A stretch of DNA of 64,000 nt, taken from contig CAKZPV010000032.1 of assembly GCA_937139405.1 (NCBI GenBank), forward strand, positions 124,001 to 188,000. Direction: 5' to 3'. Below the pieces are notes generated by a model that worked only from the letters and a program-made list of their open reading frames with translations, was not told where the DNA came from and ran no database searches. This DNA is from an uncultured Nitrospirota bacterium (lineage in GTDB: Bacteria; Nitrospirota; Nitrospiria; Nitrospirales; UBA8639). Positions 50,993 to 63,855 of this stretch are shown in pieces; position 1 is the stretch's first letter; every line of letters begins with the position of its first letter. Both the position numbers and the translations under genes were made by a program.

Positions 50993-51307
50993 TTAAAGGT
51001 CTGGCGAAGAACTCTGAGAGGATTGTTCATGTTTCCACGCCTGGAAGCGCTTCATTAATGCCTTCTTGACTTCAGGCGGCACTGGCTCAGTAGGGAGTTG
51101 GCGTAATGTCGCCACGGTATATTTCATTTGACGCAAGTAATTTCGGCAAGCCATACACAGCCCCATATGCATTTGAAACCGAAGTCTCTGGCTCAGCGTA
51201 AACGTTCCTTCTAGATAATCCGTAATCAGTGCAGCCACTTCCCGACAACTGAAATTGCCAGCCATATAAGCCATAAGTTGTTGCTTAAAATTTCTATCCA
51301 TTGCCAT
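50993..51307 (-). CDS. zf-HC2 anti-sigma factor-like protein
   Basis: CREVAALITDYLEGTFTLSQRLRFQMHMGLCMACRNYLRQM; directly downstream of ECF sigma gene. Confidence 0.88.
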   Translation of the reverse strand: MAMDRNFKQQLMAYMAGNFSCREVAALITDYLEGTFTLSQRLRFQMHMGLCMACRNYLRQMKYTVATLRQLPTEPVPPEVKKALMKRFQAWKHEQSSQSSSPDL

Positions 51308-52053
51308 TAGCTCTGTTCTCCACGCACATACGGATCTAACACACGACGGACTTTAGTTCGAGCTCGATGTAATAAGACACGCTGATTCGTCTCACTAATC
51401 GTCAAAATATTACACACCTCTTCGGCACTCACCCCTTCAACGTCACGCAATGTAATAACCTGGCGTTGATTGTCAGGCAATCCACCAATCGCCTGTTCTA
51501 TCGCCAATCGGCATTCTTTACCCAACAACGCACGTTCAGGTGTATCTGGTTCCCAACCTTGAGGAGGATCGGCCCAATGGCCTTTTCCTGAGCCTTCTGT
51601 CACAAATAGAGAATCTTCAAGTGAAGGACCGTCGTCTCCGTCAGAGTCCGAACCAGGCAACCCAAACGGCTCATAGCGACGTTCTCGTGTGCCTCGAGTC
51701 TTGGCCCGATTGGTGAGAATACGGAACAACCATGTTTTAAAAGATGAGCGACCTTCGAACCGACCAATCCCTTCCAATACCCCCATCCAGGTTTCCTGAA
51801 CGACTTCTTCAGCAACTGCTCGGCTAGGGACAAAAGACATGGCTAATCGTAACAAGGAGCCTGAATACGCTTCCATCACAGCAGAAAAGACCGCTTCATC
51901 CCCACGTTGTAGAGCCTCAACCATTCCAGCTTCATCAAGTTGAATAGTTTCTTGAAGAGCAGGAATCCCTAACACAAAGAACAGATTAGACGGCCATGAC
52001 CACAAAGACATGGCGGAGATTATCCACCGAATGTCTCTGACAATCAAGAACAA
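51307..52053 (-). CDS. ECF-type sigma-70 factor
   Basis: EAYSGSLLRLAMSFVPSRAVAEEVVQETWMGVLEGIGRFEGRSSFKTWLFRILTNRAKTRG; LPDNQRQVITLRDVEGVSAEEVCNILTISETNQRVLLHRARTKVR. Confidence 0.93.
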   Translation of the reverse strand: MFLIVRDIRWIISAMSLWSWPSNLFFVLGIPALQETIQLDEAGMVEALQRGDEAVFSAVMEAYSGSLLRLAMSFVPSRAVAEEVVQETWMGVLEGIGRFEGRSSFKTWLFRILTNRAKTRGTRERRYEPFGLPGSDSDGDDGPSLEDSLFVTEGSGKGHWADPPQGWEPDTPERALLGKECRLAIEQAIGGLPDNQRQVITLRDVEGVSAEEVCNILTISETNQRVLLHRARTKVRRVLDPYVRGEQS

Positions 52054-57869: not shown

Positions 57870-58025
57870 TCGTTCCTCAGGCTATTATCGCTTCTCTCAG
57901 ATTCACTTCTGAAATGAAGCCCTCATCGCCCCATTCTTATACTCCTGAATAAGGCTGTAATGATTGTGAGGATGGAAAGACCATGCTAAATAAACACATG
58001 GCATAAATACCAACGATCATCTCAC

Positions 58026-58832
58026 ATGTATAAATTAATACGATACGACGACATGAAACTTTGGATCATACTTTCTTTCACATTGCTCAACCTTATCGGC
58101 TGTTCATCCATTCCAAAAACGTTTTCTCCTCAACAGCCCATTTCACCCTACACGTTTACTCATCAGAAGTTTCATCAAACACTACAACAACATGTCAAAG
58201 ATGGAGTCGTGAATTATCAGACGTTGGGCTCTGACTCTTCTTTATCTGCTTACATCAATATCCTTAAGCATGTCGCGCCACAACAACTTCCCACACCTAA
58301 CCACCGTCTCACATTCTGGATCAATGCCTATAATGCCTTTGCTATACGAGGAATTCTTGATGGCCACTCCCCTTCAACGTTTTCTGGACGTTACACATAT
58401 TTTATTGCCACAGAGTATATCGTCGGGAATGAACTCATTAATTTGTACGACTTGGAACGCAAGCTCTTAATCCCCGGTTTTCGAGAACCACGTATTCATT
58501 TTGCCATTGTCTGTGCGTCACAATCCTGTCCAAAGCTCCAATCCTGGGTGTATACACCTGAGCTTATTGACGAACAACTCACGCTCAGTGCCGAACAATT
58601 TATCAACGATTCTTCACGTAACCATTTTGACCAACAAAGGAAAATCGCCTATCTTTCCAAAATATTCGATTGGTTTGAGGAAGACTTCACCAATCATTCA
58701 GGCTCTCTCCTTAACTACATCTCACAATTTGTCAAGGATGAAAGACTGGCACAAGATCTGCGCACCACCCCATACACGATTACATTCCTTGATTATGATT
58801 GGGAATTAAACGGTCTTCCTCCACAGCAATAA
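58026..58832 (+). CDS. DUF547 domain lipoprotein
   Basis: Lipobox IGCS; RLTFWINAYNAFAIRGIL; HFAIVCASQSCPKL; SKIFDWFEEDF. Confidence 0.9.
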   Translation: MYKLIRYDDMKLWIILSFTLLNLIGCSSIPKTFSPQQPISPYTFTHQKFHQTLQQHVKDGVVNYQTLGSDSSLSAYINILKHVAPQQLPTPNHRLTFWINAYNAFAIRGILDGHSPSTFSGRYTYFIATEYIVGNELINLYDLERKLLIPGFREPRIHFAIVCASQSCPKLQSWVYTPELIDEQLTLSAEQFINDSSRNHFDQQRKIAYLSKIFDWFEEDFTNHSGSLLNYISQFVKDERLAQDLRTTPYTITFLDYDWELNGLPPQQ

Positions 58833-59044
58833 TATTAATCAACAATCATTACTGACACTTTTTCTCCCTCCGTCACTATTTCCCGACAATCTGTACCATT
58901 TCCCTTTAAAAAAATGAAGAAATTTGTAATGCCTCGTACAAATAAAAGACTGAGCCCAAAGAAACCATTAAGCTGAGAGCTTTTCATACCACCAATTGAA
59001 AATCTCAGACTTTTTCAGATTATTCAACAATGGAGGCATTTAAC

Positions 59045-59311
59045 ATGTCGCAAAAATCACTGTTACTCGGGGCAGCTCTTTCCGGATTACTGGTTGTGAC
59101 GGGCTGCGCTCATTCAGGTAACTCTATGCCAGGCGGAGAGATGGCCAAAGGCCAATGTCATGGCGTCAACGACTGTAAGGGCAAGGGTGAATGTAAAACT
59201 GCAAGCAATTCGTGTGAAGGAAAGAATGATTGTAAGGGTAAAAGCTGGATGAGCATGAGCAAAGCCGATTGCGACACCAAAGGCGGGAACTACGTGGCCA
59301 AAGCCCATTGA
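59045..59311 (+). CDS. BufA2-like bufferin-type Cys-rich RiPP precursor
   Basis: MSQKSLLLGAALSGLLVVTGCAHSG leader; core QCHGVNDCKGKGECKTASNSCEGKNDCKGKSWMSMSKADCDTKGG with six regularly spaced Cys; immediately upstream of MNIO gene; RBS ggagg before ATG 59045. Confidence 0.8.
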   Translation: MSQKSLLLGAALSGLLVVTGCAHSGNSMPGGEMAKGQCHGVNDCKGKGECKTASNSCEGKNDCKGKSWMSMSKADCDTKGGNYVAKAH

Positions 59312-59330
59312 TGAATCATATACTGAGTTG

Positions 59331-60203
59331 ATGCCTACGCAAGCACCGAACATAGGGGTGGGACTTCGTCCCACCCACTATCCACACCTCGAACCTCGTC
59401 CTCAAACCAAGGTGTCGTGGTTTGAAGCCATAAGTGAAAACTATATGGACTCGAAGGGACGTCCCTTGGACATGTTGGAGCTGATACGAACGGATTACCC
59501 GGTCGCCTTACATGGGGTTTCCCTTTCTATTGCATCAACGGAAGGCCTTCGCAAAAATTATTTACACAAACTTCGCAACTTGGTTAAGCGGATTGATCCA
59601 TTTATCGTCTCGGATCATCTGTGCTGGACAGGGTTACAGCAACAAAACTTGCACGATCTTCTCCCCATTCCGTTTACGGACGAAGCGTTAACTCTTATCG
59701 TTGAACATATCGACCAAGTCCAAACATTTTTGCAAAAACCCATTCTGTTAGAGAATGTGTCAACATATCTTCGATTTCCATGCGGTGATTATACAGAATG
59801 GGATTTTTTACAAGCCGTTTCCGATCGTTCAGGGTGTCAAATTTTGTTAGACCTGAATAATTTGTATGTCAATGCCCACAATCATCGCTTTGATTCTTCC
59901 ATGTTTCTAGAAAAAATTCCTACTCAAATTATCGGACAGGTTCATTTAGCAGGGTATACCGACATGGGCACTCATCTCTTTGATACGCATTCCAAACCTG
60001 TGTATCCCGCGGTCTGGGATCTCTTTTCCTCACTCATTGCTCGTGCCCCGGATCTACCCGTATTGATTGAATGGGATGAAGACATCCCTGAATTTTCACA
60101 ACTTGAAGAAGAAGCACTGAAAGCCGCGCATATTTGGAACGACCATCATGGCCAAACTCACACTCAGCGAATTTCAACACCTGTTTTCTCAAGCTTCTCT
60201 TAG
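59331..60203 (+). CDS. MNIO family (DUF692) multinuclear iron enzyme, BufB-like
   Basis: IGVGLRPTHYPHL, WFEAISENYMDSKG, ALHGVSLSIAS, VSDHLCW, DLLPIPFTDEAL, LENVSTYLRF, LLDLNNLYVNAHNH, VHLAGYTDMGTHLFDTHSKPV, LIEWDEDIPEF. ATG 59331 preferred over TTG 59328. Confidence 0.95.
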   Translation: MPTQAPNIGVGLRPTHYPHLEPRPQTKVSWFEAISENYMDSKGRPLDMLELIRTDYPVALHGVSLSIASTEGLRKNYLHKLRNLVKRIDPFIVSDHLCWTGLQQQNLHDLLPIPFTDEALTLIVEHIDQVQTFLQKPILLENVSTYLRFPCGDYTEWDFLQAVSDRSGCQILLDLNNLYVNAHNHRFDSSMFLEKIPTQIIGQVHLAGYTDMGTHLFDTHSKPVYPAVWDLFSSLIARAPDLPVLIEWDEDIPEFSQLEEEALKAAHIWNDHHGQTHTQRISTPVFSSFS

Positions 60204-60972
60204 ACCGGAAAATACAGGTGTTGACCCGAGCCTGCTCAACGGGATCATCCCGGGAGGGACGCTGACTTCAGATGCTGCGATTGAGGTGTATCGTACCGGG
60301 CACATTGTCCGGCTGACAGAGGCCCTGGGTGAAACATTTGAAGCTGTTTGGTGGGTAGCAGGAGATGAACATTATTTTCAGTTAGCCAAGGAATTTTTGC
60401 TGACGCATCCGTCTGCTTCGTATAATCTTTCAGACTTCGGAAAACTTTTCCCAGATTTTCTCGATAAACGACAACCCTTTTCCGATCTTCCGTTTCTCGC
60501 GGACTTAGCACGATTTGAGTGGCTGTTCAAAGAGATCTTTCACCTTCCACAGCACACAAGCCTCACGGCAGATCAATTCCATCAACACCCCTTGTCTGGA
60601 AATCTTCGTCTTTCGTTTGGGCCTTCGATACGCGTATTTCAATCCCCGTATTCCGTCTATGAAATTTGGAAACTTCGAGGAACCATCCAAAATTCACTGC
60701 CAGAAAAAATTTGGGGAACCCCCCAATGGCTGCTATGCTACAAGCACCAACAGCAGGTCTATATCAAACATGTGAGTGAACCTGAATATTTGTTATTAGG
60801 CCATCTCATCGCTGGAGCGAGCATTGAGGAATCGTTGGATCGCACGCTCCAAGAATTTTCTGATATCACGGCCACCACCGTTTCTGATTTATTTACCGTG
60901 ATCAAACACACGGAGATCGTGACGCTACTCACAGAAAACACCGCACCGATAAGCGGCGATGCAGACCTATAA
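60148..60972 (+). CDS. DUF2063 domain protein, BufC-like MNIO partner
   Basis: LSEFQHLFSQASL, DAAIEVYRTGHIVRLTEALGETFEAVWWVAGDEHYFQLAKEFLLTHPSASYNLSDFGKLFPDFL; overlaps MNIO gene by 56 bp. Confidence 0.9.
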   Translation: MAKLTLSEFQHLFSQASLRPENTGVDPSLLNGIIPGGTLTSDAAIEVYRTGHIVRLTEALGETFEAVWWVAGDEHYFQLAKEFLLTHPSASYNLSDFGKLFPDFLDKRQPFSDLPFLADLARFEWLFKEIFHLPQHTSLTADQFHQHPLSGNLRLSFGPSIRVFQSPYSVYEIWKLRGTIQNSLPEKIWGTPQWLLCYKHQQQVYIKHVSEPEYLLLGHLIAGASIEESLDRTLQEFSDITATTVSDLFTVIKHTEIVTLLTENTAPISGDADL

Positions 60973-60991
60973 TCTCACAAGAAACTCAACA

Positions 60992-62002
60992 ATGAAACTT
61001 TCAACCGTCCTTAAGCCCATTAAAAACATCATCCAAAAACGGCCAATCCTAGCTATCTTTGAAGCCACCCTACGGTGCAATTCGGCATGTGGTTATTGCG
61101 ATCTCCCTCTTAATCAGGGCCGGTATGAAATGAGCCGCGAAGAAATCCTCCGTGTCTTTTCTCATCTGTATGAGGAAGGATTACGAGTCGTGTTTGTCCA
61201 AGGAGGCGAACCCCTCTTGAGGAAAGATCTCCCAGATATTCTGGACGATTTATCTTCGCTTGGATTCACCGTCAGTCTTATCTCTAACGGAACAAAATTG
61301 ACCTCTGGCCTTCTGACTCGTTTGGCCCGGCACTCGATCAGCATTTCAATCAGTCTTGATACCTTAAATCGCGAACGGTATCGAACAATAAGAGGAGCCG
61401 ATCAATTAGAACTCGTCCTGAAAGGAATAGAGTTGTTAGACGAATACCCTCATGCGAAATACCTCACCTGCATTGTGAGCGAGGTAAACCGAGATGATGT
61501 GTTGGATGTCATGCGCTTTGCACGTCATCATGGCATGATCCCTGTTCTCGGCGCATATCATTGGGACATCTCCCGGTATGGAAAAGTTGATCTTACGCTT
61601 CAGTATCAAAAAGCTACCGCAAGTGCCGTTTTTCAAAAAATACTGGAGACAAACATCGTGCCAAACGGGTATTTTCGCGACTATCTACACGACAACATCC
61701 GTTGGCTCAATGACCAAGAGCTTCCAACTTGTGATGCAGGACGATACAGCATTGCCATTGATGCCTCAGGCAATGTGGCAGCCTGTCTCGCCCTGCCCCA
61801 TAAGGGAAATCTCTTGACATCCTCATTACCTGAAATTCTTGGCGATCTGGATTATGGCGCCGTCAAACAATGCTCGGACCGTTCATCCTGCAATATGCTC
61901 TGTAGCCGTGTCGTGGGTTCAAATCTACGCCATCCTCTTTCAGCTCTAAGAACGCCAACCGTCCTGTTACCAACAACATCCGAATTCAGCCATGCTCATT
62001 AA
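60992..62002 (+). CDS. radical SAM protein with SPASM-like C-terminal Cys cluster
   Basis: FEATLRCNSACGYCDLPLNQGRYEMS (CxxxCxxC), FVQGGEPLLRKDLPDIL, C-terminal CDAGRYSIAIDASGNVAACLALPHKGN...CSDRSSCNMLCSR. Longer start at 60959 would overlap the upstream gene. Confidence 0.9.
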   Translation: MKLSTVLKPIKNIIQKRPILAIFEATLRCNSACGYCDLPLNQGRYEMSREEILRVFSHLYEEGLRVVFVQGGEPLLRKDLPDILDDLSSLGFTVSLISNGTKLTSGLLTRLARHSISISISLDTLNRERYRTIRGADQLELVLKGIELLDEYPHAKYLTCIVSEVNRDDVLDVMRFARHHGMIPVLGAYHWDISRYGKVDLTLQYQKATASAVFQKILETNIVPNGYFRDYLHDNIRWLNDQELPTCDAGRYSIAIDASGNVAACLALPHKGNLLTSSLPEILGDLDYGAVKQCSDRSSCNMLCSRVVGSNLRHPLSALRTPTVLLPTTSEFSHAH

Positions 62003-62684
62003 ATCAGGGGAACACGTTCATCTTGCCCAATTATTGACCTTTATGGTCCTGGGCGAACAGCTCGCACATGATTGTGCGCACGCCCAAATTTGTTTGGCTC
62101 CTGCACCAGGCATGAAAAAATTCTTGGCAAGCCAGGCACGACAAGAAGGGTATCATGCCCTCGCATTTCAAGGGGCCATTCGTTGGTTGACTCCACAATC
62201 TCGACATCCATCGCCGATGTCCGAACACATGAATGCATACCGAAAGCTCTTGGAAGACGCCATTGATCGTCGAGATTTTGCAGAGACCCTTGTAGCAGAA
62301 CAAATCATTCTCGAGGGGTTAGGAGAAGCCATTCTCAAAAAAATTGAGGCAGGGCTAGCAAAACGTGGTGCACCATTTCATAGACTTAGACGAATGCTCA
62401 TTCATCAAGAAGAAGCTCATCACCAATTTGGCCTCCGCGCGCTCACCGCCATGTTGGAGCGAGACGAGGAATGCGACGAGACGTTACGTGATCGAACACA
62501 GAAATATCTCCCCTTAGCCAAAACACTCCTCTTCTCGGCACAAGACGCGTTCTATTCAATCAACGAAGATCCACAGGAATATTGGAACGAGTTTCAACAA
62601 CACCTGCCTGTCTGGCTTTATACTCATTCATCACAACCGCATCACTCGCGATTTTTTCCGCTTGCAGCCTGTATCCACTCATAA
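61992..62684 (+). CDS. ferritin-like diiron-carboxylate protein
   Basis: Four-helix diiron pattern: GEQLAHDCAHA, ARQEGYHALAFQ (ExxH), AEQIILEGLGEAILKKIE, HQEEAHHQFGLRA (ExxH); overlaps rSAM gene. Confidence 0.72.
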   Translation: MLIKSGEHVHLAQLLTFMVLGEQLAHDCAHAQICLAPAPGMKKFLASQARQEGYHALAFQGAIRWLTPQSRHPSPMSEHMNAYRKLLEDAIDRRDFAETLVAEQIILEGLGEAILKKIEAGLAKRGAPFHRLRRMLIHQEEAHHQFGLRALTAMLERDEECDETLRDRTQKYLPLAKTLLFSAQDAFYSINEDPQEYWNEFQQHLPVWLYTHSSQPHHSRFFPLAACIHS

Positions 62685-62701
62685 GGAAAGAACCAGAAAT
62701 C

Positions 62702-63397
62702 ATGATCTGGGTGGTTATCCCTACATACAACGAAGAACATGCCCTCCCCCACACGCTGACTTCAGTGTTCCAACAACACGGCGAGTTCAACGTGATCGTC
62801 GTTGACGGCGGAAGTCTCGACAACACCCACGATATTGTTCGAACGCACGATCGTATAACCTGGTTGACGGCTCCTAAAGGCCGGGCCTCGCAAATGAATG
62901 TTGGAGCAAACTACGTGCTGGCACAGCAAGCTTCATCGAATGACTGGCTGCTCTTTCTTCATGCTGACACACTTCTTCCAACTCATGCCTTCAAGCAACT
63001 CAGTCATTTAGCAGAAGATAGCACGTGTCAAGCGGGAGGATTTCAGCACCAGTTTTCTGGGAAAGACTGGCGACTCCGAATGATTTCTTGGTTGGACAAC
63101 TTTCGGTGTCAGCGCTCACAAATCATCTATGGCGACCAGGCTCTATTTGTCCGTGCAGGACTCTTTCGTCAGCTGGGAGGATTTCCTCTACTCCCGATGT
63201 TGGAAGATGTCAGATTTTGCGAGCAACTTCTTCTCCATACCACTCCCCGACTTTTAGCTTCTCCGGTTGTCACTGATGCGAGAAAATTTATTCAGATGGG
63301 GATTTGGCGAAGTTTTATCCGCGTTCTAATGATCATTCTTCATGTTGAATTTGGCCTTCCGACCTTCACCCCTTCTTTTTTTGCTGATGTTCGCTAA
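62702..63397 (+). CDS. family 2 glycosyltransferase, TIGR04283-like (rSAM-associated transferase 2)
   Basis: MIWVVIPTYNEEHALPHTLTSVFQQ, VVDGGSLDNT, APKGRASQMNVGA, LLFLHADTLLP, YGDQALFVRAGLFRQLGGFPLLPMLEDVRFCEQL. Confidence 0.88.
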   Translation: MIWVVIPTYNEEHALPHTLTSVFQQHGEFNVIVVDGGSLDNTHDIVRTHDRITWLTAPKGRASQMNVGANYVLAQQASSNDWLLFLHADTLLPTHAFKQLSHLAEDSTCQAGGFQHQFSGKDWRLRMISWLDNFRCQRSQIIYGDQALFVRAGLFRQLGGFPLLPMLEDVRFCEQLLLHTTPRLLASPVVTDARKFIQMGIWRSFIRVLMIILHVEFGLPTFTPSFFADVR

Positions 63398-63555: not shown

Positions 63556-63855
63556 GTGTCACCAACCGATACCATAAACACAGGAGAGAATATGAGCCAC
63601 AACAACGAGCCCCTTACTCACACAGAAGACCTTCCCAGCTTTCTTCAAGATTTCGAAGACACAGACCTTCAGCGCTACACCTGTTTTGCTAGTGAATTTC
63701 GTGATCAACGGATGGAATCAGGATCCATTGCCGAAGCTGGCTTCTGGAATACAGTGGTCAACCTCTGTATTGATGAGCGGATGCGGCGGGATCAAGACAT
63801 TCGGCGATTAGAATATATGTACCGGACGGGTGTGGATCCAGATCAGTATAGTTAA
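63556..63855 (+). CDS. small hypothetical protein
   Basis: 99-aa ORF, internal ATG MSHNNEPLTHTEDLPSFLQDFEDTDLQRYTCFASEFRDQRMESGSIAEAGFWNTVVNLCIDERM, ggaga RBS before that ATG. Confidence 0.6.
   Translation: MSPTDTINTGENMSHNNEPLTHTEDLPSFLQDFEDTDLQRYTCFASEFRDQRMESGSIAEAGFWNTVVNLCIDERMRRDQDIRRLEYMYRTGVDPDQYS

Follow-up and report, generated by a model that had tools for sequence, protein, structure and literature searches.

The 64,000-nucleotide stretch of DNA analysed here (the window), from a relative of Nitrospira, carries a bufferin unit embedded in what appears to be a separate gene cassette, and on balance we consider it probable that together they form a composite stress operon in which bufferin and arsenosugar-type chemistry run in parallel. 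The arrangement suggests one common metal or arsenic stress response, not extra peptide modification. This reading rests on sequence: the gene identities, the independence of the cassette, a site shared at constant spacing, and matching linkage on two β-proteobacterial plasmids.

Genes of the locus

The original prediction described six consecutive plus-strand genes at 59045-63397, and their order, strand and overlaps are as it claimed. The bufB and bufC genes overlap by 56 bp, the radical SAM (rSAM) and diiron genes by 11 bp, and bufC and rSAM by 14 when the alternative rSAM start (ATG 60959) is used. Overlooked were a DUF547 gene of the same gene set directly upstream of bufA, two ECF-sigma-like sites (57956 and 58925), and an ECF/anti-sigma gene pair at 51.0-52.1 kb on the minus strand, 7 kb from the cassette. 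The features are as follows.

50993-51307, minus strand: zf-HC2-type anti-sigma protein (104 aa), overlapping the end of the ECF gene; a relative's counterpart matches PF13490
51307-52053, minus strand: ECF sigma factor, candidate regulator (PF04542/PF08281)
57956-57982, plus strand: ECF-sigma-like site (TGTAATG-N15-AGACC) with a GACC variant in its -10 part; the DUF547 ATG is 43 nt downstream
58026-58832, plus strand: DUF547 lipoprotein gene (lipobox LIGC; PF04784, 85.2 bits), with which the non-bufferin cassette begins
58925-58951, plus strand: ECF-sigma-like site (TGTAATG-N15-AGACT); the bufA ATG is 93 nt downstream
59045-59311, plus strand: bufA, Buf2-type precursor with a lipoprotein signal (VVTGC) followed by six Cys
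59331-60203, plus strand: bufB, MNIO bufferin maturase
60148-60972, plus strand: bufC, DUF2063 partner protein
60992-62002, plus strand: rSAM, radical SAM/SPASM-like protein (PF04055, 86.6; weak SPASM match)
61992-62684, plus strand: diiron protein, ferritin-like with an ADO-like predicted fold
62702-63397, plus strand: GT, TIGR04283 glycosyltransferase (202 bits, cut-off 182)

The gene identities were also predicted correctly, including the core of Cys-rich precursor, MNIO and DUF2063 protein: BufA, BufB, BufC, rSAM and GT match their families, and the diiron protein is identified by its structural model and ligands. Copper buffering is the role described for bufferins, and a Buf2 bufferin would be expected to form thiooxazoles on Cys and to bind copper. 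In NCBIfam profile searches, BufA scores 70.8 bits against NF050166 (cut-off 60), and it carries the six Cys residues and lipoprotein signal of a Buf2 precursor; GGAGG lies just 5' of its ATG. BufB scores 343.5 bits against NF050167 (cut-off 310) and 329 bits against PF05114, and it matches the structure 3bww (E = 2.5e-35). BufC scores 55.8 bits against PF09836 (cut-off 27.2), and its match to the HvfC-type NF050145 is below cut-off. With a bufferin-class MNIO and a DUF2063 partner adjoining bufA, bufABC is, by its profile matches, an ordinary Buf2 bufferin unit. It shares the six-Cys precursor, MNIO, DUF2063 partner and lipoprotein signal with the Buf2 (BufA2) operon (PMC12452194), where the signal is found in about 16% of Buf2, but it differs in lying inside an rSAM/diiron/GT cassette behind an ECF-like site. 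The same paper reports sigma genes for Buf1 clusters, not Buf2, and arsenic is absent from its main text.

The rSAM protein has a CNSACGYC motif, and C247, C265, C294 and C300 are conserved in a 63-row alignment; judged by its neighbourhoods, the gene belongs to the cassette and stands outside the bufferin core. The diiron protein has no Pfam or NCBIfam family match and only weak or chance matches among PDB sequences. In its AlphaFold model (pLDDT 83.8), the fold matches that of aldehyde-deformylating oxygenases (TM 0.75, best E 3.8e-4). Sixteen relatives all keep E22, E52xxH55, E108 and E140xxH143 unchanged, and these residues make up a complete set of diiron ligands. The likeness to these oxygenases lies in predicted fold and ligand pattern; sequence identity is 15-20%, and the protein belongs to a lineage-specific family confined to Nitrospirales.

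The GT is the second TIGR04283 copy in the genome. The other copy adjoins a TIGR04282 gene on contig C31 (L213:7652-9003; G000:C31:177652-178996), in what is this genome's better-scoring arsenosugar GT pair, close to a lysine-2,3-aminomutase-like gene. Downstream of the window GT, a gene at 63592-63855 encodes a conserved 87-aa protein that is kept in most family members, and a second homologue of the same protein lies beyond it.

Distribution of the cassette and its relation to bufferin

For INDEPENDENCE of the cassette, the diiron protein was sought in 60 relatives, of which 28 were positive, and the neighbourhoods were compared. The recurring set is DUF547-(sulfite-oxidase-type molybdoenzyme, methyltransferase)-rSAM-diiron-TIGR04283 GT, often without bufABC; the six-gene arrangement of the window recurs as well. 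When about 85,000 species genomes were scanned for the diiron protein, 80 loci came up, nearly all in Nitrospirota, and in a phylum sample strong matches are confined to the same order. Among the 55 loci with enough flanking DNA (the full-context set), the GT adjoins the diiron gene in 54, DUF547 is present in 53, and no buf gene stands beside the diiron gene in 48. Of these 48 buf-free loci, 38 contain rSAM and nearly all contain DUF547 and the GT. These neighbourhoods indicate that DUF547-(molybdoenzyme/methyltransferase)-rSAM-diiron-GT is an independent Nitrospirales cassette. Because the rSAM/diiron/GT trio is found without bufABC in most relatives, it is not a bufferin add-on.

This result bears directly on the original prediction, which proposed that the trio may further modify, metal-load or glycosylate BufA, and which had itself named independent occurrence of the trio in relatives as one observation that would refute it. 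An alignment of relatives adds to the difficulty. BufA peptides are similar whether cassette-linked, at a separate locus (as in genome G021, where the peptide is of the same kind as cassette BufA) or orphan, and no cassette-specific sequence change was found, so no residue marks BufA as a substrate of the extra enzymes. In genomes G032 and G027, the cassette contains bufBC but no bufA; the bufA pair is at another locus, next to an ECF sigma gene. Further conserved genes are also reported to occur in bufferin clusters only at extremely low proportions (PMC12452194). Tailoring of BufA by the trio nevertheless draws on the overlapping genes, which suggest co-translation, on BufA2-type bufB, which 11 genomes of the 60-genome panel have and 10 of these have at the cassette, and on the pbs cluster, where MNIO and rSAM enzymes cooperate on one peptide (PMC12257519), so that direct action on BufA is possible. 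Taking both sides together, we regard it as quite unlikely; the predicted gene identities and core stand and the arrangement recurs in relatives, and the extra modification of BufA is not supported. A related reading, that bufferins are partly arsenic-response peptides cooperating directly with the cassette, for example by binding periplasmic arsenite or methylarsenicals or by serving as a carrier that rSAM, diiron protein and GT load, also seems unlikely.

Could bufABC simply have been inserted into the cassette by chance and be unrelated to it in function and regulation? The stability of the cassette in the absence of buf genes would fit such an event. On a diiron/GT tree, however, four changes of buf label are needed, at least three of them forced by well-supported branches, and several gene orders are seen: DUF547-bufABC-rSAM-diiron-GT, rSAM-MTase-DUF547-bufABC-diiron-GT and bufABC-MTase-x-DUF547-rSAM-diiron-GT. 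These changes and orders, together with the shared promoter-like site and the parallel β-proteobacterial linkage described below, make chance insertion highly improbable; on the genomic evidence, the association of buf genes with the cassette is not random.

Other arrangements were noted during the survey. Tandem bufA genes without bufBC lie beside a MerA-like FAD oxidoreductase gene and an ECF sigma gene at L236:6751-7425 and L237:7275-7885, and in both cases the sole strong MNIO of the genome is in a distant cassette. At L108:3000-5485, a buf-free cassette is preceded at a distance of 3 kb by a Buf1 operon with DoxX on the other strand, and a run of N in the scaffold separates the two. Three contigs labelled Verrucomicrobiota or Nitrosospira (L127, L083 and L102) carry a Nitrospira-type cassette and are probably misbinned or mislabelled.

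A shared promoter-like site

Alignment of upstream DNA reveals one conserved element before bufA, TGTAAYR-N15-RGACT. The pattern was defined on bufA alone and afterwards tested at other loci. It lies upstream of bufA in 7/7 cassette loci and of three orphan bufA genes. Among 13 buf-free cassettes of the same family, the strict site occurs within 250 bp in eight and within 400 bp in nine; in seven of the nine it stands 92-364 nt before the diiron gene, and in two before rSAM or DUF547, one of these (L120) being cut upstream, where a buf gene is possible. The strict site is absent within 400 bp in 4/13, some of which are cut by contig ends. When GACC is allowed, the site also precedes the molybdoenzyme gene (4/7) and the window DUF547 gene, and 17 of 22 loci have it at this spacing, compared with none at ten other spacings.

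The same element reaches arsenic genes. TGTAA-N18-GACY lies upstream of arsM in 21 of 37 genomes, including this one (other spacings, 0-2; shuffles, 0.06 on average). This genome has seven exact sites. One of them, on contig C45, stands 101 nt upstream of an ArsM-like gene, with ArsS next in line. A further conserved site, C31:182108, is 340 nt from the lysine-2,3-aminomutase-like gene, in an operon with the genome's other TIGR04283 copy. Over whole genomes, the strict motif is rare, with no enrichment (67 sites vs 82 for the control in 21 genomes of the genus); by hand tally, 27 of the 67 are at arsM, bufA or diiron genes. In Nitrospira family f3 the site is found at 1/66 cassettes, and some f3 arsM genes carry it; a de novo motif search upstream of f3 rSAM genes recovered no such site. 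A generic sigma-70 promoter scan performed no better than shuffles. Motif matches inside ECF genes (L316 and L322) were rejected as promoters, as they are coding sequence. The three orphan bufA paralogues at L235:7070-7348, L239:949-1227 and L240:2434-2760 lie beside a glutathione-peroxidase-like gene and have the same ECF-like site.

The site has the form expected of an ECF regulon, a conserved -35/-10-like pair at fixed spacing upstream of the member genes, and an ECF sigma factor, perhaps that encoded at 51307-52053, may read the TGTAA-N18-GACY sites. Homologues of this factor are found near the cassette in buf-free relatives and beside the tandem bufA genes of L236 and L237. In relatives, whether or not they have bufferin, the ECF/anti-sigma pair and an AhpC/TSA-like gene are conserved at a distance of 5-10 kb from the cassette. 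In the window, bufABC-rSAM separates the ECF-type site from diiron-GT, whereas in buf-free relatives the site stands immediately upstream of diiron-GT; joint induction of bufferin, cassette and arsM-arsS is therefore possible. The tie between bufferin, cassette and arsM-arsS is better explained as regulatory, through the shared stress-promoter-like site and the arsenosugar-type families.

Arsenosugar-type families and plasmid islands

Arsenosugar biosynthesis clusters comprise arsS, TIGR04283, TIGR04282, DUF547, rSAM and TVP38/FAD oxidoreductase families. As in the clusters of Burkholderia glumae and Acinetobacter portensis plasmids, the window has a TIGR04283 GT and DUF547 in one cluster. On the annotated Acinetobacter plasmid the two occur together with arsS and TIGR04282, and the window proteins align with their counterparts there at 28% identity (DUF547, E 3e-24) and 35% (GT, E 3e-32). 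The Acinetobacter island contains no bufferin genes, so the bufferin-arsenosugar linkage is not obligatory.

Like the window, the Burkholderia and Cupriavidus islands have an rSAM beside DUF547 and a bufferin operon in the same island. The B. glumae plasmid island has arsS, TIGR04283, TIGR04282, an rSAM-DUF547 pair and a Buf1 operon; the latter, DUF2282-DUF692-DUF2063-DoxX, continues into the TVP38/FAD oxidoreductase gene of the arsenosugar set. Six TGTAA(A/C)-N16-CGTC sites occur in 30 kb of this plasmid, all 53-192 bp before genes (reversed control, 0), and they precede, among others, arsS, rSAM-DUF547, bufA1 and an ECF gene. On the Cupriavidus plasmid, bufABC-DoxX lies about 4 kb before arsS-TVP38/FAD-TIGR04283-TIGR04282-MTAP-rSAM-DUF547. 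The Acinetobacter, Burkholderia and Cupriavidus islands are few independent cases.

There are also differences from these clusters. The window GT qualifies as TIGR04283, but the window rSAM is not ArsS, and ArsS with the ArsM-like gene lies on contig C45, apart from the window. The Nitrospirales rSAM shares only 27% identity over 175 aa with the Burkholderia rSAM. The ADO-like diiron protein is Nitrospirales-specific, with one weak match among plasmids, and the plasmid islands yielded no counterpart of it; the bufferin is Buf2 here and Buf1 there. The putative arsenosugar role of TIGR04283 and DUF547 is drawn from annotation and neighbourhood.

The cassette might instead make an unrelated glycolipid or envelope component, with bufferin and arsM merely in a common ECF envelope/metal stress regulon. 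DUF547 is a lipoprotein here and stands beside ABC transporter genes elsewhere, and the predicted diiron fold resembles that of an aldehyde oxygenase. The set also includes a sulfite-oxidase-type molybdoenzyme (compare MsrPQ), and the Caulobacter SigF/NrsF regulon comprises ECF-controlled bufferin operons and the sulfite-oxidase-type molybdoenzyme MsrP (PMC8224329). That regulon parallels the present association of bufferin with such an enzyme, but its bufferins are Buf1, it belongs to a different phylum, and no arsenosugar genes are reported in it. The co-occurrence of DUF547, TIGR04283 and an rSAM with arsS on plasmids argues against the envelope explanation, which we consider rather doubtful while taking it seriously.

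Proposed mechanism and significance

In the composite stress operon that we favour, stress, presumably arsenic or metal, would release an ECF sigma factor, and transcription from the site at 58925 would cover bufABC-rSAM-diiron-GT. BufB and BufC would oxidise Cys residues of BufA, and the modified peptide would be exported, lipid-anchored and bind metal as a chelator. In parallel to bufferin, DUF547 together with rSAM, diiron protein and GT would make or tailor a separate small molecule or lipid linked to a sugar, most likely an organoarsenic one; this substrate and chemistry are putative.

The bufferin and arsenosugar families are already known. The joint operon, the site in common with arsM-arsS and the parallel β-proteobacterial linkage were not found in the papers that could be searched, and no paper tying bufferin or DUF692 to arsenic or arsenosugars was found in that literature, subscription papers being outside its scope. 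The linkage and common promoter-like site, in Nitrospirales and independently on β-proteobacterial plasmids, give a testable reason to ask whether the signal or ligand of bufferins is arsenic (or a common thiol/metal stress). They also assign to a defined candidate regulon a pathway of rSAM, ADO-like diiron protein and GT that is uncharacterised and widespread in Nitrospira.
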